Source: Planctomycetota bacterium
GTDB lineage: Bacteria; Planctomycetota; Phycisphaerae; Tepidisphaerales; Tepidisphaeraceae
DNA: 36,065 nucleotides
Direction of reading: 5' to 3'
Assembly (NCBI GenBank): GCA_029777755.1
Contig: JAKORQ010000077.1
Location: forward strand, 1 to 36,065
Positions within the stretch are counted from its first letter, which is position 1, and every line of letters begins with the position of its first letter. The notes under the pieces were generated by a model, which ran no database searches, was not told the origin of the DNA, and saw only the letters and a program-made list of their open reading frames with translations. Positions 1-14,298 of this stretch are shown here, piece by piece. A program made the position numbers and the translations under genes.

Positions 1-568
1 CAAGGAACTTGCCAAACTGGTTGTCATGGGCGTCATGGCAGGTGGTGCACTGCAGCTCCTGGTTGTGGTCGAGACGGACGGAGGAATGCAGCGCGGCCGG
101 GCTCTTGAGCTTGGGATTCTTCGACACCAGGGCGCTGTCATAGCGGAAGCTGATGGGGTGATCGTCCGAAAGGTCGGTACCGAGGTTGGACTTCCCCGGG
201 GGAAGCGTGGTGATACCGCCGGCCATCATGATCGGCTGGTGGCGCGATACCACGTTGCCCAGCGCGATCGTGCCGTCATGGCATGACAGGCAGAGCTTGG
301 AGTTGCCCGTTGGCTGCCCCGGGCTGGCCTTGAGCGAGTTGGATGAATAGACCTTGTACGCGGCGGCGGGCAGCTGACGATTCCACAGCGGCTGGACCGG
401 CGTGGCATTGTGCGGGGTGTGGCAGAAGATGCAGACCTGCTGCTCGGAGGTGGCGCGCACGCTGCCCGGGCCGGCGGCCGAGAGATTGTGCACCGAGTCG
501 ACGATGCTCTGCTGCGCCAGCAGGAGCTGCCCCATGAGCACACATATCACCAGAGATGTCCATCTCAT
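1..568 (-). CDS. Multiheme c-type cytochrome (OmcE-like tetraheme pattern), 3' end truncated by window edge
   Basis: Manual translation from ATG at 568 (overlaps the upstream TGA in ATGA): MRWTSLVICVLMGQLLLAQQ...CIFCHTPHN...CLSCHDGTIAL...LGTDLSDDHPISF...CTTCHDAHD. Three CxxCH before the edge; same layout as the 6334 cytochrome. Missing from the ORF track because it is open at the edge. Confidence 0.88.
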   Translation of the reverse strand, partial: MRWTSLVICVLMGQLLLAQQSIVDSVHNLSAAGPGSVRATSEQQVCIFCHTPHNATPVQPLWNRQLPAAAYKVYSSNSLKASPGQPTGNSKLCLSCHDGTIALGNVVSRHQPIMMAGGITTLPPGKSNLGTDLSDDHPISFRYDSALVSKNPKLKSPAALHSSVRLDHNQELQCTTCHDAHDNQFGKFL

Positions 569-1653
569 TGCTTGTTCTCCGGTAGATAGTCGAACACCTG
601 CAACCGACGGTTGTACGTGTCGGCGACCCAGATGCGGTCGTGTGGATCGATGAAGATGCCGGCCGGCAGCCAGAACTGCCCCGGCCCGCGCCCCTCCTGG
701 CCGAAGGTCAGCAGCAACGTCCCCTGTTCATCGAATATCTGCACCGCCTCGAACTGGGCATCGACGACGTACAGGTGATCCTCCGAGTCGATGGCGATTC
801 CCTTCGGCTGCGCGAATGTCCCGGGAACGGTCCCCTGCTTGCCGATCACCAGCGCCGGGCGGAACGTCGCGTCAAACTGCTGCACACGGAAGTTGAGCGA
901 GTCAGAGACATACACGCGCCCCTTGCTGTCGACCACGACGTTGGTGGGATAGTTGAACTGGCCCGGCTCGGTGCCACGCTCTCCGATTCGGGTGAGCAGT
1001 TCGCCATCCAGCGAGAAGACCGCGAGCTGATGAGCGCCGGTATCGACGACCAGCAGCCGGCGGGTGACTGCGTCATAGGCCATGCCGGCCGGCCGGCGCA
1101 GCTCGCCGCTGCCGAACGTCCCCTGGTACCTGCCATCACTGGCGAACACGTGGATGCACGCACCAACCGAGTCTGACACCAGCACGCGCCCGGCAGGGTC
1201 GTATGCTATTCCCACCGGCTGGGCAATGAGCTGTGGCCTGGGCGGGCTCCAGCGGGCGTACTTGCGCGTGTCCAGGTCGAATACATGCACGAACTGCCCC
1301 TGGGCGTCGGCCACGAAGATGCGGTCCTGCCCATCGGTGCAGACCGCGTACGGCGAGAGCATCGAGTAGGCTTCCTTCTTGCCGAAGATGGCGCGGTTGA
1401 TCGCCTGCCCAAGCCCCACCCCGGGCTTGAGGTCATCGCTAGTGACCAGCTCCCCCACCCATTCGATGCGGGTACGCTCCGGCGGAGGCGGCCAGACGAT
1501 CGGGTTCTCCAGGCGCGGGAATACCACCCCGGCCGAGCGCACGCAACTGACCGACAGGGCGGCCAGCGACAACAGCAGGATCATCGCGCAGGCGCCAAGC
1601 AGGCGTCTCTTGCCTTGCCGCTTCAGTCGCATTGTGTCCGTGTCGTGTCGCAT
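565..1653 (-). CDS. NHL-repeat (6-bladed beta-propeller) lipoprotein
   Basis: Signal peptide with lipobox (LSVSC); repeated 'GQFNYPTNVVVDSKGRVYVSDSLNFRVQQFD' type NHL blades. Confidence 0.9.
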   Translation of the reverse strand: MRHDTDTMRLKRQGKRRLLGACAMILLLSLAALSVSCVRSAGVVFPRLENPIVWPPPPERTRIEWVGELVTSDDLKPGVGLGQAINRAIFGKKEAYSMLSPYAVCTDGQDRIFVADAQGQFVHVFDLDTRKYARWSPPRPQLIAQPVGIAYDPAGRVLVSDSVGACIHVFASDGRYQGTFGSGELRRPAGMAYDAVTRRLLVVDTGAHQLAVFSLDGELLTRIGERGTEPGQFNYPTNVVVDSKGRVYVSDSLNFRVQQFDATFRPALVIGKQGTVPGTFAQPKGIAIDSEDHLYVVDAQFEAVQIFDEQGTLLLTFGQEGRGPGQFWLPAGIFIDPHDRIWVADTYNRRLQVFDYLPENKQ

Positions 1654-1668
1654 CGTCGTTCGCTCACA

Positions 1669-3687
1669 TCAGAAGTACCTGCGAATCCCCATTCGAATGA
1701 ACTCAAAGTTCGTGTCCTGCGCATCGCCGCGGAACTGTGCCGCCCGCGCCTGCAGGTAAAGATCGACCTGGCGATAGTTCCAGCGCAACTCCAGCTGCTC
1801 CTCAAACCCAGTGTTGTCGCCGTAACGCCGATTGCTTTCATCTCGCCACATCACCAGGGCGCTGCCGCTGAGGCGGGTGCTGAATCGATGGTCGACACGC
1901 GCCGAGATCGTGTACAGCCCAAGCACGTTGTCATCATCGATAAGCTCGATGCGTGTATACGTTCCATTCACCGACCAGGTAGTCTCGGCCGCGTTGCGTA
2001 TCCAGCGGAAGTACACGCGATCGGCATTGTACGGGTATACGGTGCTGTCATGCTCCTGGTGCTCGGCGCCAACAGTGAACTCCTTCAGGAAGCGGTAATC
2101 AGCGCCATAGACATAGTCGTCATACTCATTGAACGGTACCCGTCCCGGGTCGGGCGAATCAATCTCCTGCCGCTGGAGGCTGTAGCGGACGAACAGGCCA
2201 AGTCCATCCAGGGGCCCACGATCAAAGTCATAGCGCAGGCCTGACCCGAGCCGCCGCGTCTCGATCACATTGGCGGGCAGCGAATCCTGCGTGTAGTCGA
2301 TCAGCACCGACTGCCCCGAGCCGATCCGCCCGCCGATCACCCGGTGCAGCTCGACGCGGTCGCCGAAATCCTCCACCGTATAGTCGACACCGGGCAGGTA
2401 CAGCAGGCCCGATGGATCGGTCAGCACGATGCTGCTGGGCGAGGTGTTCGAGGGCAGCACGATCGGGAGAGGATCGGTGAAGGAGCTGACCATGTCGATC
2501 ACCTGGATCTCGCCGCTGCCTTCACTCTCGGCGCGGCTCCAGCCCAGGTTGAGGTTCGCACCCAGCCTGCCCATGGGGACGCGCTTGCGGTATTGCCAGT
2601 CGATGTCGGCAAATGTCTCGGTGGTTTGGTAGCCCTCGGAATCATCGGTGCGCATGATGCCGATGTCCGCATCGGTGGTCAGACTCTGGTATAGGCTGTG
2701 GGAGAACCCGGTGCTGGCGCGATGGGTGTCGGTGGTGTAATCGCGCAAGTTCAGCCGCTCGAAGCTGTAGTTGTAGCGGGTGCGGAACTTGCGCGAGTGC
2801 CGCAGCATCAGCGACTCGGACCAGCGGAAGCGATTCACGTCCGAGGTGCCGCTGTACTCCGACCAGCGGACCGACGAAGTAAGCCGGCTGCCGCCACGCT
2901 CGCCGAAGTTGGCGCGATGCGTGGCCGAGGCATCCTGCTGCTGGTACTCGAAATCGACTCCGTTGGTCTCGTCGATGCGCGAGTAGTTGTACGCCATCTC
3001 CAGCGTCTGGCTCTGCGACAACAGCGCAAACGCCGACCAGGAGATGCGATCCTGCGTGTACCTGAGGTCATCCTCCGGCTCCGGTCCATCCTGGCTCGAC
3101 TCGATATGCGAGATTGACAGGGTATTGTCGAATTTGCCGATGCGATGATTCAGGCTAAGCCCCGTCTCGGTGGTCTGTGCCTCGATAGCCGCCCCGAAGT
3201 CGCGAAAGATCCAATTCTGATCGCGCCGGCTGAAGACGGTCAGCGGCCATTCGCCGGTGCGCAGGTATGTCGCGCTCACGTCCCAGCGATACAGCGGGCC
3301 GACGGTGGTTGAGTCCTGGCCATTGGTGTCGGAGAAGCGTTCCTCGGCCCCTCCGGAGAACGACATCTCCAGAGACAGGTAGTTGGGGTGCAGGTAATAG
3401 CCGGTGGTGTCGTAGTTGAGCGTCTGGCCGAGCACGAAGTCGGTGGTCTCGACCCGGCCATTATCCTGGTGATTGTCGGTGCGATTGTGGTGATACAGCG
3501 ACACCATCTCCAGCGAGAGCAGTCCCGGGTTTATACGCAGCCCGCTGCGGGGCAGTTCGCGGGTCAGGATGATCGGCTCACCGTCGTCGGCGCGGGTGGT
3601 CTGCGCAAGCGAGAACTCGGCCGCGATGGCCACCGCCATGCATGCCTGCATCAGTCTCACCACGTCTCGCCCGCGCAACAGCCTCAC
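1669..3687 (-). CDS. Outer-membrane beta-barrel (porin-like) protein of the cytochrome cluster
   Basis: 672 aa, signal peptide, many alternating amphipathic segments with aromatic girdles, C-terminal '...FEFIRMGIRRYF' (terminal Phe as in BAM substrates); overlaps the pentaheme gene by ATGA. Confidence 0.75.
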   Translation of the reverse strand: MRLLRGRDVVRLMQACMAVAIAAEFSLAQTTRADDGEPIILTRELPRSGLRINPGLLSLEMVSLYHHNRTDNHQDNGRVETTDFVLGQTLNYDTTGYYLHPNYLSLEMSFSGGAEERFSDTNGQDSTTVGPLYRWDVSATYLRTGEWPLTVFSRRDQNWIFRDFGAAIEAQTTETGLSLNHRIGKFDNTLSISHIESSQDGPEPEDDLRYTQDRISWSAFALLSQSQTLEMAYNYSRIDETNGVDFEYQQQDASATHRANFGERGGSRLTSSVRWSEYSGTSDVNRFRWSESLMLRHSRKFRTRYNYSFERLNLRDYTTDTHRASTGFSHSLYQSLTTDADIGIMRTDDSEGYQTTETFADIDWQYRKRVPMGRLGANLNLGWSRAESEGSGEIQVIDMVSSFTDPLPIVLPSNTSPSSIVLTDPSGLLYLPGVDYTVEDFGDRVELHRVIGGRIGSGQSVLIDYTQDSLPANVIETRRLGSGLRYDFDRGPLDGLGLFVRYSLQRQEIDSPDPGRVPFNEYDDYVYGADYRFLKEFTVGAEHQEHDSTVYPYNADRVYFRWIRNAAETTWSVNGTYTRIELIDDDNVLGLYTISARVDHRFSTRLSGSALVMWRDESNRRYGDNTGFEEQLELRWNYRQVDLYLQARAAQFRGDAQDTNFEFIRMGIRRYF

Positions 3688-4283
3688 TGAACTACTTCAC
3701 TTCCTTCGGCCGGAGCCGCCATGGAATCATCCGCGATTTTCAGCAGGAAATTCCGGTCCTCCCCGCCATGCCCCGAGTGGCAAGTCAGGCAACCACTGTT
3801 CTGTTCCGAGTGCTCTGGCACGCGCGTGCTGAGCAGTTCCGTCTCGTGACACTGCACGCAGATCCTGGGGGATGAATACTTCAGCAGGTGCACCTCCGAC
3901 GCCTGGTGCGGCTGGTGACACTGCAGGCACTCCTTCGCTGCCACCGGCCCGTGCATCACGGGGTATGACGCGGCCACATCCGCATGGCATGAGATGCACG
4001 CATCCGGCTTCACGCGCGCGCGAGCGAAGATGTCGCGGGTGTTCAGGTGGCAGGCGTCGCACTGGTTCTCGGCGTACGGGGCATGGATGTAGACCGGCCG
4101 GCCGCTGCTGCTCACCAGTTGCTTCTTCTGGGTCGTCTGCGATGGGTCAGGCACGCCATCGAAGAAGAAGCTCAGGATCTTGTAGCGCTGCTCGGGCGTG
4201 CCGCAGCCGGCCAGCATTGCCCCCAAGACAAGGACAATCCCGGTCAGCCACCCTCTCGCAGCGCTATGCCGTATTCCGCGCAT
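3684..4283 (-). CDS. Pentaheme c-type cytochrome lipoprotein (doubled CXXCH type)
   Basis: CDACH, CISCH, CLQCH, CVQCH, CLTCH; lipobox 'MLAGC'. Confidence 0.92.
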   Translation of the reverse strand: MRGIRHSAARGWLTGIVLVLGAMLAGCGTPEQRYKILSFFFDGVPDPSQTTQKKQLVSSSGRPVYIHAPYAENQCDACHLNTRDIFARARVKPDACISCHADVAASYPVMHGPVAAKECLQCHQPHQASEVHLLKYSSPRICVQCHETELLSTRVPEHSEQNSGCLTCHSGHGGEDRNFLLKIADDSMAAPAEGSEVVQ

Positions 4284-4301
4284 TTGCCGGTGCGTCTTTC
4301 C

Positions 4302-5510
4302 TCAGTTTGCCGGCCTGGTCGTCGGACCGGCCGTAGAATCGCTCGCTCTCGGGGCATCCGAGATGGTGATCGACCCGCTGGTATTGGCGCTGTCGGCCGA
4401 GGTGTCGGCCACGGTGTAACCGGGCTTCAACCGCCCCATCGCATAGACTGAAACCTTCTGGTCGCCGAACTGGTTGGCCACGAATATCAACCGTTCCGCC
4501 TGGAAAGCCGGGTGGATGTACCTGGCGAAAATCTCGAGGTTCTTCTCTGAGATCTCCAGCCCGGCCGGCAGGTCCATCGCCCCGGGGAAGGAACCCAGCC
4601 CGCCGTAGAAGCCAACCACCCTTCCCTCGGAATCAAACACCTGCACGTTGTTGAACGCAGCATCAACTACATGAATGTGGTCGTCGCTGCCGATCGCCAG
4701 GTGCTTGGGACGAACGAACTGGCCCGGGCGATTGCCAGTCTGCCCGAATCCGAGCAGGAAAGTGCCATCGGGAGCAAACTTCTGCACCCTCGCCTTGATG
4801 AAATCCGAGACATAGATGTTGCCCTGGCGATCAACCGCCACCCCCAGTGGCCCGATGAACTGCCCATCCTCGCCGCCGCGCTCGCCGATGGTGTGCAGCA
4901 GCTCGCCAGTCTCACGGTCGAGTACCTTCACGTGGGCATTCTTCAGGTCGGAGACGTATAGCCGATCCTGGTAAAGCGCGATGGCCACCGGGTTGGTGTC
5001 GGTAAGCCGCAGGCTCTTTACGTATCGCTCCTCAGGGGAGAAGACGGAGATCTGGCTCTGCGCTGAATCGACGACGTACTTGGTCCCATCGGGGGCGATG
5101 GCAAGATCGACGGCCTTGCGGATGGCCGACGACCCGGTGGCGCCCATCAGGCGGGCCTGCTGCTTTGGGAGATCCAGCACGACGATGCCGGTGCCGCGGA
5201 CATCGCAAACGTAGATTCTCCCGTTCCAGAAGCGCACGCCGTAAGGCTTGTTGATGGGATAGGCCTCGGCCGCCTGAGAGCCGAAGATCGTCTCATCCAG
5301 GCTGCTGCGCGGCGGACTTACATCGGTAGACCTGTTGTAGGAGACGAGGAACTGGATGCGCGGTTCATCGGGCGCGGGCGGCCAGAACGAGTAAGTGCGC
5401 TTCTCCGCCGGCGCCTGCGTCGGCGTACTGACACATCCCCCGAGCACCATCGCACAAAGCGCCACGGCGGCGAATCTCACAAAGCTTCTGCTTGCCATTA
5501 GCACAGTCAC
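4302..5510 (-). CDS. NHL-repeat lipoprotein, paralogous to 565..1653
   Basis: Lipobox 'VLGGC'; shared 'FWPPAPDEPRIQF' after the signal peptide (cf. 'WPPPPERTRIEW'); NHL blades 'GQFIGPLGVAVDRQGNIYVSD'. The start may be the Met at 5498. Confidence 0.9.
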   Translation of the reverse strand: MTVLMASRSFVRFAAVALCAMVLGGCVSTPTQAPAEKRTYSFWPPAPDEPRIQFLVSYNRSTDVSPPRSSLDETIFGSQAAEAYPINKPYGVRFWNGRIYVCDVRGTGIVVLDLPKQQARLMGATGSSAIRKAVDLAIAPDGTKYVVDSAQSQISVFSPEERYVKSLRLTDTNPVAIALYQDRLYVSDLKNAHVKVLDRETGELLHTIGERGGEDGQFIGPLGVAVDRQGNIYVSDFIKARVQKFAPDGTFLLGFGQTGNRPGQFVRPKHLAIGSDDHIHVVDAAFNNVQVFDSEGRVVGFYGGLGSFPGAMDLPAGLEISEKNLEIFARYIHPAFQAERLIFVANQFGDQKVSVYAMGRLKPGYTVADTSADSANTSGSITISDAPRASDSTAGPTTRPAN

Positions 5511-5590
5511 CTCATTTCAACATCGATTCGGTCCTCTCCCCTGCCGCATCGGGCAAACGCGCGGAAGCGGGGCAGCCGTCGATGTGCTCG

Positions 5591-6334
5591 TTACTTGTGG
5601 TGGCAGCTCAAGCAGATCTCGCTGCCGGTGTTGGTTACCCGCAGAAGTCCCGGCTCATCGGGCAACGTGCCATTGTGTACGTCATGGCAGGTCACGCAGG
5701 AGATCGAAGGCCAGTTCGTGTAGGTGATGTCATTTCCGTCCTGGTCCTTGGAGCCGGCGGGAACCGGCGTGGTCGACCAGGCGAATTTGCGGAACTTGGC
5801 CTGCACGCTGGCGAACGGGGCATAGCCATAGTGGCCGCCGTGCTGCGTGTTCTCCTTGTACTGAGCGCGGAAGCCGACCGGGTGGTCGTTGCTCAGGTCA
5901 GTGCCGAGGTTTGCGGTAGGTGAGCCGTGGCCGGCGGTGCCGATGGTGCCACCGGTGACGCGGCTCTGGTCCTTGCCCATGAAACTGTCGAGGGCGACAG
6001 TCCCGTCATGGCAGGACAGGCACAGGCGAGACGCGCCGTCCATGTCATTCTGGGTAAGGATGGTATCGCCGGCATCGAGCGTGGTGGTGTTATCCACCGA
6101 CGTCGAGCGGGTACCGTGATAGTTGTACTCGGCGGTCGAGAGGGTGTGGGCCCAAAGGCGGCCGGTGATCCCCGTCTCGATCGCATTGTGAGGCGTATGA
6201 CAGGGCTTGCAGATGGCGTTATCTGACCAACCCTGCGCCGAAAAATCATGCTTCGAGCCGGCGACTTCGCCCAGCGCAAAGCAGGCCGCGAGCATTGGCG
6301 TGGCCGCGGCTATAAACTTGAACAAGCTTCTCAT
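5591..6334 (-). CDS. Tetraheme c-type cytochrome (OmcE-like pattern)
   Basis: MRSLFKFIAAATPMLAACFALG signal; CKPCHTPHN, CLSCHDGTVAL, LGTDLSNDHPVGF, CVTCHDVHN, CLSCHHK. Start trimmed from the ORF track to the Met at 6334 ahead of the signal peptide. Confidence 0.9.
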   Translation of the reverse strand: MRSLFKFIAAATPMLAACFALGEVAGSKHDFSAQGWSDNAICKPCHTPHNAIETGITGRLWAHTLSTAEYNYHGTRSTSVDNTTTLDAGDTILTQNDMDGASRLCLSCHDGTVALDSFMGKDQSRVTGGTIGTAGHGSPTANLGTDLSNDHPVGFRAQYKENTQHGGHYGYAPFASVQAKFRKFAWSTTPVPAGSKDQDGNDITYTNWPSISCVTCHDVHNGTLPDEPGLLRVTNTGSEICLSCHHK

Positions 6335-6788
6335 GAGATTCTCCCATCTGGTCCTGGCGGCGGCCAGACCATCCGGCTTGCCCGCCAGGTCGCGTTGCGT
6401 GTGACTGCCCCGCTTCCGCGCATTTGCCAAGCGTGCTCATGGCAAGCACCGTACCAACCAGATGTGAGATTCCCGCAGCCGCCATCATGACCCGATTTCC
6501 CCATCCGACCGGGCTTCTGCCTCACCGATCCTTCCCGGATTCAAGAGAGCAAAGCAGCCTCATCTCCCAAAGCGGAGAGCGCTGTCATCTTTGACGGTTA
6601 ATCGCACTTCCCGTGTGCGAGATATACGGCCTGGTCAATTCCCAGTTTCAAGACGAAGGCAACCAGATTACGCGGCATTCTGCAGCACAAATGCCCTCTG
6701 CGGGGCGGAAAACGTCGATGGGTTGCCTGGAACACGGCTCAAGCGGCTATGGCACCGTCGTTGCGAACTCGTCGGGCGAGGCATACCT

Positions 6789-7202
6789 ATGCAGAAGATG
6801 ACAATTAAGCTGATCTTCGCCGGGCTTACCCTGGTGATGGCCGCGGGCTACCTGGCATATGCCGGGTTAAAGGACGGCTGGGTATACCACGTTGAGGTTG
6901 ATCAGTACCTTGCGGCGCGGGAGATGCACACGCAACGTGTGCGTCTGGTCGGCAAGGTTGGGGAGGAGAACTTTAAGTCCGATTCGGCCGGGCTGCATGC
7001 CAGCTTCCAACTGCTGGGTGAAGGCAGCCAGCTTCCGGTGGTCTACCGCGGGGCGATCCCGGAACTGTTCAAGCCAGAGGCCGAGGTGGTGGTCGAGGGC
7101 AAGCTTGATCCCCTGGGCGTTTTCCAGGCGGATGTGCTGATGACCAAGTGCGCCAGCAAGTATGAGTCCGAGGCGCATACCCGGGTGAATGAGGGGCTGT
7201 AA
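6789..7202 (+). CDS. ccmE: Cytochrome c maturation heme chaperone CcmE (CxxxY variant)
   Basis: MQKMTIKLIFAGLTLVMAAGYLAYAGL TM anchor, OB-fold region, 'GVFQADVLMTKCASKYESEAH' where CASKY replaces the usual HxxxY; immediately upstream of ccmF. Confidence 0.9.
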   Translation: MQKMTIKLIFAGLTLVMAAGYLAYAGLKDGWVYHVEVDQYLAAREMHTQRVRLVGKVGEENFKSDSAGLHASFQLLGEGSQLPVVYRGAIPELFKPEAEVVVEGKLDPLGVFQADVLMTKCASKYESEAHTRVNEGL

Positions 7203-9305
7203 ATGGGCGGCGTAATCTCCATCAACGGGCTTGTCGGCGGCTATTCCCTGCTGGCGGCAGTAGTTATAGCAGGATTGACCGTGGTGGCGTCGCTGGGCGC
7301 CGCCAGGCTTGGTGAGGTGAGATTTCACCGCATGGCCCGCTGGGGGATCTACCTCACCGCACTGATGTTCGCGGTGGCCTCCGGTGCGATGGCGCGCGCC
7401 CTGTACATGAGCGATTTTTCCATCGCCTACGTCGCCAGCTATACCGAGAGGGCATTGCCGCTGGGGTATAAGCTCTCGGCCTTTTGGGCCGGGCAGGAAG
7501 GCAGCTTGCTGTTCTGGGCACTGGTGCTGGCGATGATGGTGGCTGCATATGCATTCATCCGCCGACATGACCATTCGCGCCAGCAGGCGATCACGCTGTT
7601 GGTGCTGGCCGTCACGCTGGGATTCTTCGCCTCGTTGCTGACCTTCGTGGATGCCGACAAACTGCCTTTCAGCCCCCGGCACCCGGTGCCAGCCGACGGC
7701 ATGGGGCTTAACCCCATGCTGCAGAACATCGGCATGATCGCGCATCCGCCGACGCTGTTCATCGGCTATGCCGGCTTCACCATCCCCTTTGCCCTGATGA
7801 TCGCGGCGCTGGTCTGCGGGAGCCTGGAAAGCTGGATCGGCATCGCCCGCCGATGGATACTCTTCGCCTGGATATTCCTGACCATCGGCATCATCCTCGG
7901 GGCACAGTGGGCGTATGTGGAGCTGGGCTGGGGCGGCTACTGGGCGTGGGACCCGGTGGAGAATGCCTCGCTGCTGCCCTGGCTGACGGGCACCGCCCTG
8001 CTGCACTCGATCTTCGTACAGCAGCAGCGCTCGATGTTCCGCCTGTGGAACGTGCTGCTGGCCGGCGGCACCTTCATACTGTGCATATTCGGGACGTACA
8101 TCACCCGCAGCGGCATCATCCAGTCGGTGCACGCGTTCCAGCCGTCGCTGATCGCCACATTCTTCCTGACATTCATGATCCTCTGCACGATCGCCTGCCT
8201 GGCGCTGATCATCTTCCGCTGGCGGCGTCTCGGGCAGCAGCCCGCCGTACGCGGCAAGGGGGATGCATTCGAGAAGGCCCCTGCCATGCAGGGCCTGATC
8301 AGCAGGGAAGGCGCGGTCTTGCTGGGCAACTCGCTGCTGGTGCTGATGACCGTGCTCACGCTGCTGGGCACCATGTCGCCCGTGATCAACGAACGCCTCA
8401 CCGGCCGCGCCATCACCATGCAGCAAAACTTTTACAACACCGCAGTTCTGCCGCTGGCGCTGGTGATGCTGCTGATCATGGGCGCAGCACCGATGCTGGG
8501 ATACGGCCTGACAAAGCTCGGCGATCTTTTACGGTGCGTGCGCGTCCCGCTGGCGATCTCCTTCCTGGCGGCGATCGTGGTCAGCTTCATTGTTGGCATC
8601 CCCATCCCGGAGGATGCCCCGCTCAAGACCGTCGTACGGCTGATGCTGCTTGGCCCGCATAGCTGCACCTTCGTGGTGGCGATGACCATCTGCTGCCTGC
8701 TGGCCGACTTCATACAGGTGTTGCGTGCCCGGATGCGCAACGTCGGCGGAAATCTGCTGGGCTGTGCCTTCGCCGCGATCGACGCCAGCCATCGCCGCTA
8801 TGGAGGACACATGGCGCACCTGGGCATGGCAATGATTGTGGCCGGCATCGCCGGCTCCAGCCTGTTCGGGCAGAAGGAATCAGCGCAGCTTGTGCTGGGT
8901 GAAAGAACCCGCATCGGCTCCTATGAGGTATCGCTCGATGCGGTGAACCGTATCCGCGGCGCCAACTTCACCGGCATGGAAGCGGTGGTGACGCTCACCA
9001 CGCCCGCCGGCAAGCAGCACGTGCTTAAGCCCCAGATCCGCGAATATGCCAAGTCGCGCAACGGCGCCAACGCCGAGGTGGCGCTGATGACCAACCTTGC
9101 CGAGGATGTCTACATCAGCGCCCTGGGGTTTGGCTCGGAAAGCTCGGCCACCATCCAGGTGATGATCAATCCGCTGGTGCTGTGGATCTGGATCGGCGGG
9201 CTTGTTATGACGCTCGGCGGCGTGTGGGCGATGCTCCCCACACTCATGCCGGCTGGGCAGCGCGTGGAAGTTAAGCAAGCAGTACCCGTGACTCAGGGAG
9301 TGTGA
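7203..9305 (+). CDS. ccmF: Cytochrome c maturation heme lyase CcmF
   Basis: Polytopic; WWD motif 'WAYVELGWGGYWAWDPVENASLLPWLTGTALLHS'. Confidence 0.95.
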   Translation: MGGVISINGLVGGYSLLAAVVIAGLTVVASLGAARLGEVRFHRMARWGIYLTALMFAVASGAMARALYMSDFSIAYVASYTERALPLGYKLSAFWAGQEGSLLFWALVLAMMVAAYAFIRRHDHSRQQAITLLVLAVTLGFFASLLTFVDADKLPFSPRHPVPADGMGLNPMLQNIGMIAHPPTLFIGYAGFTIPFALMIAALVCGSLESWIGIARRWILFAWIFLTIGIILGAQWAYVELGWGGYWAWDPVENASLLPWLTGTALLHSIFVQQQRSMFRLWNVLLAGGTFILCIFGTYITRSGIIQSVHAFQPSLIATFFLTFMILCTIACLALIIFRWRRLGQQPAVRGKGDAFEKAPAMQGLISREGAVLLGNSLLVLMTVLTLLGTMSPVINERLTGRAITMQQNFYNTAVLPLALVMLLIMGAAPMLGYGLTKLGDLLRCVRVPLAISFLAAIVVSFIVGIPIPEDAPLKTVVRLMLLGPHSCTFVVAMTICCLLADFIQVLRARMRNVGGNLLGCAFAAIDASHRRYGGHMAHLGMAMIVAGIAGSSLFGQKESAQLVLGERTRIGSYEVSLDAVNRIRGANFTGMEAVVTLTTPAGKQHVLKPQIREYAKSRNGANAEVALMTNLAEDVYISALGFGSESSATIQVMINPLVLWIWIGGLVMTLGGVWAMLPTLMPAGQRVEVKQAVPVTQGV

Positions 9306-9311
9306 ATCAGG

Positions 9312-10373
9312 ATGACCAAGCGCACCATCGCAACTCTGGCCCTGTGCCTGTCGGCCACCGTATTGGCGGCCGAGCAGGAGATGCCGCTGCCCCCCGGCCA
9401 CCCGGAGATAGCCCATCCGTCTCCATCCAGCATGCCGGAAAGCGCCATCGGCACCCTGCGCATCCACGCGCAGCAGAAGACCGCCGATGGTCCTTCCCTA
9501 CAGGGGCAGAAGGCGATCGTGCACTTCTACCAGGGAGACAAAGTCATCAAGCACGTGGATGCGGTGCTGGATGCCAACGGCGAGGCGACGGTCGGCGACA
9601 TCCCGCTGACACGCAATGCCGTGCAGGCGCTGGTGATGGTCCCCTACGGCAACATCACCTACCAGGCGGTCAGTCACATCATGAACTCGGCCATGACCGA
9701 GGCAAAGGTGGAGGTCCCCGTCTACGAGACCACCAGGGACATCCCCGAGTGGAAGATCGCCATGCGCCACCTGATGATCTCCCACACCTCGGCCGGCGTG
9801 CGGGTTGTGGACATGCTGGCGGTCGACAATCCCTCCGATCGAACCTGGATTGGAACCAACGAACATGAGGAGGGAACCACGCTGATCCTCAAGCTGCCGC
9901 CGGGCGCGGGGAATATCGAGATCGGCGATGGCTTCACCGAGCATAGCCTGCATTTCCACAACGGAACGATTTACAACGTAGCGCCGATGACGCCGGGCAT
10001 GACCCATTACAGCTTCGGCTATACCATCCCGGTAAAAAGCGGGAAAGTGGAGATCCCCATCAATACCCCGGCGCTCACGCAGCAGCTGATCGTCTTCGCA
10101 CCCAACGACGGTAGCGAGATCAAGGCAAACGGGCTGCTGGAGCAGGGCACACGAAAGACAGACGGCGGCGAGATGCGCATGTTCAGCGGTGTGGCGCTGA
10201 TGCCCGGGCAGCCATCCGGGCTTACCATCAGCGGGCTGGCAAACACCCCTGCCGCCGTGGGTGGCGGCTGGAGCACCGCACAGGTCGTGGCCGCCTCGGC
10301 GCTGGGAGTGGTGCTGCTGGGCGGGATCGGCTTCATGCTCCTCAAACCCGTCAAGCCAAAGGCGGAGAATTAA
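9312..10373 (+). CDS. Uncharacterised exported, C-terminally membrane-anchored protein within the ccm operon
   Basis: Signal peptide, 'MPLPPGHPEIAHPSPSSMP', beta-rich middle, C-terminal TM 'VVAASALGVVLLGGIGFMLL' plus KPVKPKAEN tail; sits between ccmF and ccmA. Confidence 0.8.
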   Translation: MTKRTIATLALCLSATVLAAEQEMPLPPGHPEIAHPSPSSMPESAIGTLRIHAQQKTADGPSLQGQKAIVHFYQGDKVIKHVDAVLDANGEATVGDIPLTRNAVQALVMVPYGNITYQAVSHIMNSAMTEAKVEVPVYETTRDIPEWKIAMRHLMISHTSAGVRVVDMLAVDNPSDRTWIGTNEHEEGTTLILKLPPGAGNIEIGDGFTEHSLHFHNGTIYNVAPMTPGMTHYSFGYTIPVKSGKVEIPINTPALTQQLIVFAPNDGSEIKANGLLEQGTRKTDGGEMRMFSGVALMPGQPSGLTISGLANTPAAVGGGWSTAQVVAASALGVVLLGGIGFMLLKPVKPKAEN

Positions 10374-10393: not shown

Positions 10394-11131
10394 ATGCGAT
10401 CCATAGAGAGGTCAACTTCGGCTCAGGCAGCAGCGGCCGAGTTGGCCGTTCACGCCCGGAACCTGCGCAAGGTCATCGACGACCGTGTTATCCTCGATGA
10501 CCTGGGCTTTGCCATCCCCCGCGGCCGGTATATCGCCCTGCTGGGAGCCAACGGCGCCGGCAAGAGCACGTTGATGCGCATCCTCTCGATGCTCACGCCT
10601 CCCAGCGGCGGGGAGCTTTCCTTGTTCGGCCAACCGCTCAGGAGCACCAGCGCGGGCATGCGCCGGCGCATCGGGCTGATAAGCCACCAGGCGATGCTCT
10701 ATCGCGATCTCTCGCCGCGCGAGAACCTTCGCCTGTTCGGCAAGCTGTACGGCATGCGCAATGCCGACCAGCGGGCCACGCAACTGCTACAGCTGGTGAA
10801 CCTAGCTGACCGTGCCGACGACCCCGTGAAGAACTTCAGCCGCGGCATGACGCAGCGCACCGCCATCGCGCGGGCGCTGATGCATGATCCTGACCTGATC
10901 CTGGCGGATGAGCCGTTCGCCGGACTGGATGCGCCATCGACGCATACCGTCGAGCTGCTGCTGGATGCCCTTAACAAGTCCGGGCGCACCATCCTGCTGG
11001 CCAATCACGATATTGAGCAGTCGCTGCGCCTTGCGCAGCAGGTGCTGGTTCTCAGGCGCGGGAAGCTGGTGCTGGATTGCCCCTCTTCGCAGGTCAGCGC
11101 CGCGGAAGTGCTCAAGGAGATCGGAGGATGA
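10394..11131 (+). CDS. ccmA: Heme ABC exporter ATP-binding protein CcmA
   Basis: Walker A 'GANGAGKST', signature 'NFSRGMTQR', Walker B 'DLILADEPFAGLD'; position in ccm operon. Confidence 0.93.
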   Translation: MRSIERSTSAQAAAAELAVHARNLRKVIDDRVILDDLGFAIPRGRYIALLGANGAGKSTLMRILSMLTPPSGGELSLFGQPLRSTSAGMRRRIGLISHQAMLYRDLSPRENLRLFGKLYGMRNADQRATQLLQLVNLADRADDPVKNFSRGMTQRTAIARALMHDPDLILADEPFAGLDAPSTHTVELLLDALNKSGRTILLANHDIEQSLRLAQQVLVLRRGKLVLDCPSSQVSAAEVLKEIGG

Positions 11132-11132
11132 G

Positions 11133-11807
11133 ATGCGCACCACGCTTTCCCAGATTCTTTTGCTTGTCGGCAAGGATCTGCGCATCGAGGCGCGCAGTCG
11201 GCAAACGCTCGGCCTGGTGATCACCCTCGGGCTGCTGATCGTGGTGGTGCTGGGGCTGGGGCTTGGCGCGGAGGCGGCGAAGGGCTACTCGGCGATGGCT
11301 GTCCTATGGGTGGCATACCTTTTCTCAGGTGTTCTCTGTTTTGAGAAAACCATGGCGGTGGAGCGGCATGAAGGAGCGATGGCCGGGCTGCTGCTGGCGC
11401 CTGTGGATCGTGGCGTCATCTACCTTTCCAAGCTGATAGCCAACCTGCTGATGATGCTGGCGGTGGCGCTGGTGGTGACGCCGGCCGGCGTACTGTTTTT
11501 CTCGTTCGATCTGTCAGCGGCGCCACTGTCATTTGCCCTGATCATGGGGCTGGGAATGCTGGGGGTGGCGGCCGTGGGAACGCTGTTTGCTGCAGTCGTA
11601 TCCTCGACGCGGCTCGCAGGCGGGCTGCTGGCTATGGTGGTGTTCCCGGTGGTGCTGCCGGTGGTGATTGCCTCAACGCAACTGATGCTGGGCATCTTCC
11701 GCGACGGCAAGGAACTGGGCGGAACCGGCCTGGCGGTGCTGATCGCGTTCGACGTGATCTTCGTGACGGTGAGCTGGTTGGTATTCGAGTGGATCCTGGA
11801 GCCGTAA
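11133..11807 (+). CDS. ccmB: Heme exporter subunit CcmB
   Basis: MRTTLSQILLLVGKDLRIEARSRQTLG; six-TM-like protein with 'FEKTMAVERHEGAMAGLLLAPVDR'; start trimmed to the ATG at 11133. Confidence 0.93.
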   Translation: MRTTLSQILLLVGKDLRIEARSRQTLGLVITLGLLIVVVLGLGLGAEAAKGYSAMAVLWVAYLFSGVLCFEKTMAVERHEGAMAGLLLAPVDRGVIYLSKLIANLLMMLAVALVVTPAGVLFFSFDLSAAPLSFALIMGLGMLGVAAVGTLFAAVVSSTRLAGGLLAMVVFPVVLPVVIASTQLMLGIFRDGKELGGTGLAVLIAFDVIFVTVSWLVFEWILEP

Positions 11808-11812
11808 GGGAC

Positions 11813-12565
11813 ATGAACTCAAAGACAAAAACTCTGATCGCGGCCGGCACAGTGCTGACGCTTGCCCTCTTTGGCGCGGCGCTGGCCATGCTCGTCTACT
11901 ACACCCCCACCGAGAAAAGCATGGGGCAGATCCAGAAGGTTTTCTACATCCACCTTCCGGTTGCCATCAACACGTTTCTGGCCTGCCTGGTGTCGTTCAT
12001 CGCGTCGGTGGGATACCTGTGGACACGGCGGATGAGCTGGGACGACCTGGCCGCGTCATCCGCCAAGGTCGCGGTCGTGCTTTGCAGCATCGTGCTGCTC
12101 ACCGGCATGATCTGGGGCAAGGCGGCGTGGGGACAGTGGTGGACCTGGAGCCCGCGACTGACCTTCAGCCTGATGCTGTGGCTGCTGTACGTGGTCTACC
12201 TGATCATCCGCAATTCGATCGACTCCGCGCCCCGACGGGCGCTCATCAGCGCGGTCTACTCGGTCATCGCCTTCCTCGACGTGCCGCTGGTGTACCTGTC
12301 GGCGCGCCTGATGCAGGACATTCACCCGCAGAGCATCGAGCTTGAACCGGCAATGAAACTCACGCTGCTGGTCTGGTTCATCCCGGTGACACTCGCCAAC
12401 GCGGGGATGATTACTCTTCGCTACATGCTGGCGCGAGCCCAGGCGGAAACGGCCGGGCAGTCGCCGACGGACCAGCAGCAGCCGGCCATCGAGCCAGGGT
12501 CCGCCCAGTGGCATGCCCTGCTCAATGGAAACGGCAGTACAAGTGACAGGGAGGTAAACAAGTGA
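11813..12565 (+). CDS. ccmC: Heme transporter subunit CcmC
   Basis: Trp-rich 'WGKAAWGQWWTWSPRLTFSLMLWLLYVVYL' motif; start trimmed to the ATG at 11813. Confidence 0.93.
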   Translation: MNSKTKTLIAAGTVLTLALFGAALAMLVYYTPTEKSMGQIQKVFYIHLPVAINTFLACLVSFIASVGYLWTRRMSWDDLAASSAKVAVVLCSIVLLTGMIWGKAAWGQWWTWSPRLTFSLMLWLLYVVYLIIRNSIDSAPRRALISAVYSVIAFLDVPLVYLSARLMQDIHPQSIELEPAMKLTLLVWFIPVTLANAGMITLRYMLARAQAETAGQSPTDQQQPAIEPGSAQWHALLNGNGSTSDREVNK

Positions 12566-12699
12566 ACTTCACGCAGTACCTGATCGCGGCATACGTCATC
12601 GGTATCGGGATGATCATGCTGTACGCCTTCTACACGATGGTGCGCCTGTTTGCCGCCAGCCAGCGCTGCCCGGTGAAGTCCCGCCGGGAGAGGAAATAG
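12562..12699 (+). CDS. ccmD: CcmD-like small membrane protein
   Basis: GTG start overlapping the ccmC stop: VNFTQYLIAAYVIGIGMIMLYAFYTMVRLFAASQRCPVKSRRERK (45 aa, one TM). Too short for the ORF track. Confidence 0.75.
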   Translation: MNFTQYLIAAYVIGIGMIMLYAFYTMVRLFAASQRCPVKSRRERK

Positions 12700-13317: not shown

Positions 13318-14193
13318 TCAGCGCTTGGTGGGATCTCCCAGCCCGTTCCAATAGCCGTTGTCGACGTTGCCGTCGCCATCCATGTCATCCAGCTGCTTGG
13401 GGTGCAGCGACTCAACATGCCCGTCGCAGAACAGGACGTTCACCTTGCCCTTGTTGCGCGGCGCGGGGGTGGCACGCATGGGTGAGTCCGGCGGATCGGT
13501 GATGTTGCCGCCACGGTAGCCGAAGTTGCCGTTGGCATAGGGATCGGCGGAGCTGCGGCGGCTACCCTTCGAGCCCAGTTCAACTGACTGCAGCGGCGGA
13601 TCGATCGCATACACGCCCTCGCCGGCATCCCAGCCATCGCGGCAGCCCTGGGTGTCGGCGATCGCCACCGTCAGGCTGGGATTGCGAATGTGCGATTCCT
13701 TGGCATAGAACTTGGAGATGCCGCCCGGATCGCGCCCGTTGCCCAGGTACTGGTAGTTGTAGCCGTAGCCGCCGTAATACTTGGTATCCGGCAGGATCCC
13801 GGGATTGGAGTTGGGATCGCAGGTGTGGGCGAAGGGCTTCTGCATGCGCTGGCGGTCGGTGTCATCGAGGTGGGGGCTCATGTAGACCTCGGTGTTCTGC
13901 ATGTAGGGGTAGATCAGGTCCGCCCAGCGAATCTTCGGTGTGTTGGTGGTTGAGATGGAGTGAACCGGGTAAGTGCCGCGATTGTCATTGCGATACATGA
14001 GCAGGCCGATGCCAAGCTGGCGCAGGTTGCTCAGGCTGGCGGTGGTGACGGCAGCCGCCCGCGCCGAGGCAAGGCTCGGCAGCAGGATGCCTATCAACAG
14101 CGCAATGATACCGATAACTACTAACAGCTCGACAAGGGTAAATCCCCGCGAGCCTGCTTGCCGGCTGTCGCCGACAACTGATCCCTGACGCAT
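13318..14193 (-). CDS. Prepilin-type N-terminal cleavage/methylation protein (DUF1559-like)
   Basis: '[33 protein letters not shown]' and C-terminal '[13 protein letters not shown]'. Start trimmed to the Met at 14193. Confidence 0.88.
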
Positions 14194-14298
14194 TACTGAT
14201 CCTCTTTCCGCCCGTGGGTTTTGTTTCAAGGGCCGCAACGCGATGCACGGGCTGCACATCGCGTGCGGGTTTCGTTTTCTCGCTTGGGTAAGGACGTC

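Follow-up and report, generated by a model that had tools for sequence, protein, structure and literature searches.

The window, by which we mean the whole stretch of 36,065 nucleotides analysed from the planctomycete contig JAKORQ010000077.1 (Phycisphaerae; Tepidisphaeraceae), carries on its forward strand a tightly packed operon in the order ccmE-ccmF-X-ccmA-ccmB-ccmC followed by a CcmD-like ORF. These are the heme chaperone gene ccmE (6789..7202, PF03100 5e-24), the heme lyase core ccmF (7203..9305, PF16327 1e-52 and PF01578 3e-37), the ORF termed X (9312..10373, defined by its translation and its homologs), the ABC ATPase ccmA (10394..11131, profile matches), the permease ccmB (11133..11807, PF03379 2e-23), ccmC (11813..12565, TIGR01191 2e-25 and PF01578) and a 45-aa ORF with one transmembrane helix (12562..12699) that is probably CcmD-like judging from its size and position. 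Only 6 bp lie between the end of ccmF and the start of X, and 20 bp between the end of X and ccmA. The heme-binding His of CcmE is replaced by Cys followed by xxxY (CASKY in the window), as in System I*, and this CxxxY form was present in 36 of 36 planctomycete CcmE examined. The region upstream of ccmE (565-6430) carries on its reverse strand genes for two multiheme cytochromes with 4 and 5 CxxCH motifs and for two lipoprotein-like proteins with NHL repeats. A further gene there encodes a beta-rich protein of 672 aa that has no Pfam match and resembles an outer-membrane barrel; the set reads like an outer-membrane cytochrome conduit adjoining its own maturation genes. Inspection of the ORF list by eye also revealed at 13318-14259, on the reverse strand, a product that starts like a prepilin and has FCDGHVE in its C-terminal part, a combination typical of planctomycetes.

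X encodes a protein of exactly 353 aa for which searches with the window protein returned no Pfam, NCBIfam or PDB sequence match, and one copy is present in the window genome, which is 82% complete. A predicted signal peptide (approximately aa 1-21, 9312..9374; helix 3-19 in the AlphaFold model) containing the only Cys of the protein is followed by a linker with one LPPGHP motif (aa 26-31, 9387..9404), by domain 1, a prealbumin/CnaB-like beta sandwich (aa 45-137, 9444..9722) assigned from AlphaFold, a PF13620 match in homologs and pilin matches, by domain 2 (aa 148-307, 9753..10232), which AlphaFold and Foldseek liken to domain I of M1 aminopeptidases and the luminal domain of Ost1, and by a C-terminal transmembrane helix (aa 322-344, 10275..10343) placed from the model and comparison of the tails. 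This agrees with the initial annotation, which had described a 353-aa protein between ccmF and ccmA with a signal peptide, a GHP-containing linker, a beta-rich part and one C-terminal transmembrane helix. The AlphaFold model, predicted from a 27-sequence X alignment (A2) that was also used as a search query, has a mean pLDDT of 88.9 and consists of the two beta domains and the helix.

Foldseek searches with the window model and with a separate model of the L034 homolog both placed Ost1/ribophorin I at the top of the ranking and M1 aminopeptidases next with ~200 columns matched, giving E values of 8e-9 to 1e-5 for the Ost1/M1 aminopeptidase N-domain fold at the domain level. As these matches have ~10% identity and full-length superposition was poor (TM 0.28-0.35), the likeness holds at the level of the domain only, and no sequence homology to Ost1/ribophorin I or M1 aminopeptidase was detected as a Pfam or PDB sequence match. 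Some X homologs match CarboxypepD_reg (PF13620).

We looked at the linkage of X to ccm genes in 392 Planctomycetota genomes, 43 of them with CcmF, using loci annotated with iterated profiles. The A2 search found full-length X in 24 genomes, all 24 of which have ccm genes; 22 belong to the 43 CcmF-bearing genomes (Fisher p 4.7e-22, a statistic that ignores kinship among genomes) and the remaining two, G096 and G162, have ccmA/B beside X. In 29 genomes the ccm operon includes X, with ccmA following it immediately unless the contig ends first, as happens on two contigs, and the profile-annotated loci show it in the same slot across planctomycete families and classes. Diverged versions occupy the ccm operons of five more genomes from one family, a count that leaves out several CcmF-bearing genomes of that family, and were tied to X by a single profile-profile comparison over ~96 columns (prob 97.7, E 2.3e-12) whose set also took in L091, already among the 29. 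In family f39 (L081-L084, L090, L091) CcmF is ~1000-1100 aa long instead of ~700. Four relatives with 29-35% identity all have X between ccmF and ccmA, one of them as two tandem copies, and because homologs at this distance hold the same slot in other genera X is more than a chance ORF. A scan of genome contigs for X homologs gave only four loci and nothing additional, and a plasmid tblastn with an X homolog gave no match. X evolves faster than its neighbours, with identities in the comparison with L008 of 33% for X against 46% for CcmF, 54% for CcmE, 57% for CcmA, 65% for CcmC and 68% for CcmB.

The only full-length copy outside a ccm operon is an extra paralog in G092 (L033:7144-8739), downstream of genes for NrfD and 4Fe-4S proteins in an operon that includes ferredoxin genes. 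Two operons, L065 and L077, have ccmF-ccmH-ccmA with a CxxxY CcmE and no X, so X is not universally needed. Tandem X genes occur at L011:7428-9651, where the first copy lacks the transmembrane helix, and X is internally duplicated at L067:5422-7800 and L070:6444-8822. Across the phylum X is nearly always found in ccm operons and every accompanying CcmE is CxxxY; the comparison shows X to be a conserved ccm-linked family, predicted to be exported and anchored, that occurs alongside CcmH or outlasts its loss. The initial annotation had named as refuting its reading a spread of homologs mainly outside ccm loci or membership of an established unrelated family; both were checked and neither came up, as X homologs are nearly all in ccm operons and have no sequence match to a known family. 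Its wider suggestion of a new cytochrome-assembly component thus retains its conserved, operon-linked part.

Outside the Phycisphaerae the usual gene order in most lineages is ccmE-F-H-[small CcmI-N-like ORF]-X-A-B-C. An ORF between ccmF and X in these lineages is CcmH, with PF03918 over cut-off in several and further CcmH ORFs found by a family profile built from the ORFs of the ccmF-X interval, while no CcmH scored over cut-off in the ten X-bearing Phycisphaerae searched, several of which are at least 96% complete. Weak CcmH matches within ccmC were treated as chance. As CcmH is encoded beside X in most non-Phycisphaerae lineages X is not a CcmH substitute, and the earlier placement of X in the CcmH slot has to be revised in favour of one in which CcmH coexists with X and X appears in place of the CcmI periplasmic domain. 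The observation that X has no CxxC, the redox pair of CcmH and CcmG, held for the window protein and for every homolog. In G159 and G096 (L034:7739-9058 and L031:2325-3431, both on the reverse strand) a CcmH-like domain is apparent at the N-terminus of X, weakly by profile HMM (E 0.007 for L031 and 0.8 for L034) and with prob 88.7 and E 2.5e-6 in a single hhalign profile-profile comparison, and this stretch is modelled as helices ahead of the beta domains. CcmH of E. coli is likewise fused to CcmI (PMC3601427). Planctomycete CcmH (L068:5492-6088 and similar slot ORFs) often has CxCPxENWxxTLxxCPxxC instead of the usual CcmH CxxC motif.

CcmI, the apocytochrome chaperone of the CcmFHI complex (PMC3884852), did not score over cut-off in any of the 32 genomes tested, with a Caulobacter control scoring positive. 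Many operons have between ccmH and X a small ORF that encodes a transmembrane helix and a hairpin; in four genomes it matches TIGR03142 (CcmI N-terminal) with E values of 2.5e-5 to 5e-3, below cut-off, and in others similar ORFs were recognised by eye. Many non-Phycisphaerae X homologs have a cytosolic hairpin after their transmembrane helix with weak CcmI and SHOCT matches; 6 of 20 X tails matched TIGR03142 (best E 0.0017, below cut-off), and the hairpin is also SHOCT-like, a generic resemblance. X of the window has a short tail with no CcmI-like hairpin region. The TPR periplasmic domain characteristic of CcmI is missing from X, which has a beta-sandwich model and no Pfam match. Lying beside CcmH and a CcmI-N-like ORF in genomes with no standard CcmI, X would take the position expected for the periplasmic domain of CcmI.

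Its position, apparent fusion and fold lead us to propose, with a probability of roughly one half, that X belongs to the CcmF(H) heme lyase of a planctomycete System I* as a CcmI-like subunit that holds apocytochrome but has no TPRs. The two periplasmic beta domains would hold or present unfolded apocytochrome beside CcmF, or might steady it after heme addition, taking on the task of the CcmI TPR domain in proteobacteria, with X beside CcmF being comparable to the single-helix Ost1/ribophorin I beside oligosaccharyltransferase. Where CcmH is present X would work with CcmH and the TPR-less CcmI-N-like protein, and in the Phycisphaerae CcmH would have been lost and X kept. We prefer this explanation because of the conserved operon position (29 genomes and the five diverged ones recognised by profile), the co-occurrence of X with ccm genes, the apparent CcmH-like fusion, the CcmI-N-like ORF between ccmH and X where CcmI itself is missing, the CcmI matches among the tails, the Ost1/M1 fold matches from two models and the lack of conserved Cys, His or Met such as redox or heme chemistry would require. 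Against it we count the operons of L065 and L077 that have no X, the G092 paralog beside NrfD/ferredoxin, the fold-level nature of the Ost1 match, the SHOCT-like tail and the questioned chaperone role of Ost1. More tentatively, X may represent a new non-TPR class of apocytochrome-handling protein built on a ribophorin-I-like fold that replaces the CcmI periplasmic domain and lets CcmF work without CcmH in the Phycisphaerae.

A role on the heme-export side, with X docking on CcmABCD/CcmE and aiding the release of holo-CcmE with its Cys-bound heme or guiding CcmE to CcmF, is possible but unlikely. It fits the location of X immediately 5' of ccmA wherever the contig continues, the CxxxY form of all 36 CcmE found with X and the persistence of X without CcmH in the Phycisphaerae; however CxxxY CcmE also occurs in the X-less operons of L065 and L077, the fusion partner of X is CcmH-like and no CcmABCE protein, and the operon already has a CcmD-like ORF following ccmC.

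We are more doubtful that X relays heme by binding it, or a metal, through a GHP-repeat linker and conserved W/M/H residues. LPxGHP is present in one to five copies in several Phycisphaerae and W147, M151, H153 and W179 are invariant among close relatives, but over the 27 sequences of A2 only G90, N173 and P196 are invariant, H153 is found in only about half and no His, Cys or Met is shared by all, which speaks against a family-wide role in ligating heme directly. The GHP motif highlighted in the initial annotation proved to be mainly a Phycisphaerae trait, missing from several homologs there and from most of the rest of the family, and its reading as a heme ligand was downgraded as the motif is not conserved.

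A general envelope scaffold co-transcribed with ccm genes by chance is similarly improbable. The fold of domain 1 is very common and domain 1 alone has weak matches phylum-wide in many large planctomycete proteins, which we took as generic domain matches and did not count as X, yet full-length X is limited to ccm-bearing genomes and to one slot and shows the apparent CcmH fusion. A divergent thiol-reducing replacement for CcmG/CcmH, suggested by adjacency to ccmF and the missing CcmH of the Phycisphaerae, is highly improbable, being contradicted by sequence and model alike in that no homolog has CxxC or a conserved Cys, the model is a beta-sandwich and neither a thioredoxin nor a three-helix bundle, and X coexists with CcmH elsewhere.

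A literature search of partial coverage on Ccm together with planctomycetes or carboxypeptidase-regulatory domains found no title or abstract describing X. CcmH is lacking in some bacteria with System I* and kept in about a third (PMC3601427), and since CxxxY with or without CcmH is already known the new element here is X. The archaeal Ccm study calls it unclear how heme is attached by System I* when CcmH/CcmI are absent, and poses as open whether non-orthologous proteins took over from CcmD/H/I in archaea (PMC9084895). With X as a conserved candidate linked to the operon in a bacterial phylum, the CcmH/CcmI part of that question becomes testable, and the Ccm pathway would gain a component that current models and annotations do not have.

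The planctomycete system shares with System I* of Desulfovibrio and Archaea the CxxxY CcmE and, in the ten X-bearing Phycisphaerae, the absence of CcmH, a frequent but not definitional trait that does not extend to other planctomycetes, where CcmH is present; it differs in X, an added conserved component with no counterpart mentioned in the excerpts at hand. Like CcmI/CycH (the C-terminal half of E. coli CcmH) X is encoded after ccmF-ccmH, is predicted to be a membrane-tethered periplasmic protein, in some genomes apparently carries a fused CcmH-like domain and in many homologs has a transmembrane helix and cytosolic hairpin resembling the CcmI N-terminal region, but it has two periplasmic beta domains instead of TPRs and does not match CcmI models significantly by sequence. 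Ost1/ribophorin I, whose described role is to restrain glycosylated peptide and for which a chaperone role has been questioned (PMC7226087), has two domains of the M1-aminopeptidase type where X has one and a CnaB-like domain, shares no usable sequence identity with X and serves another enzyme. Both combine beta domains like M1-aminopeptidase domain I with one C-terminal transmembrane helix, and X, like Ost1, would have as its neighbour a membrane enzyme acting on polypeptides after their translocation.
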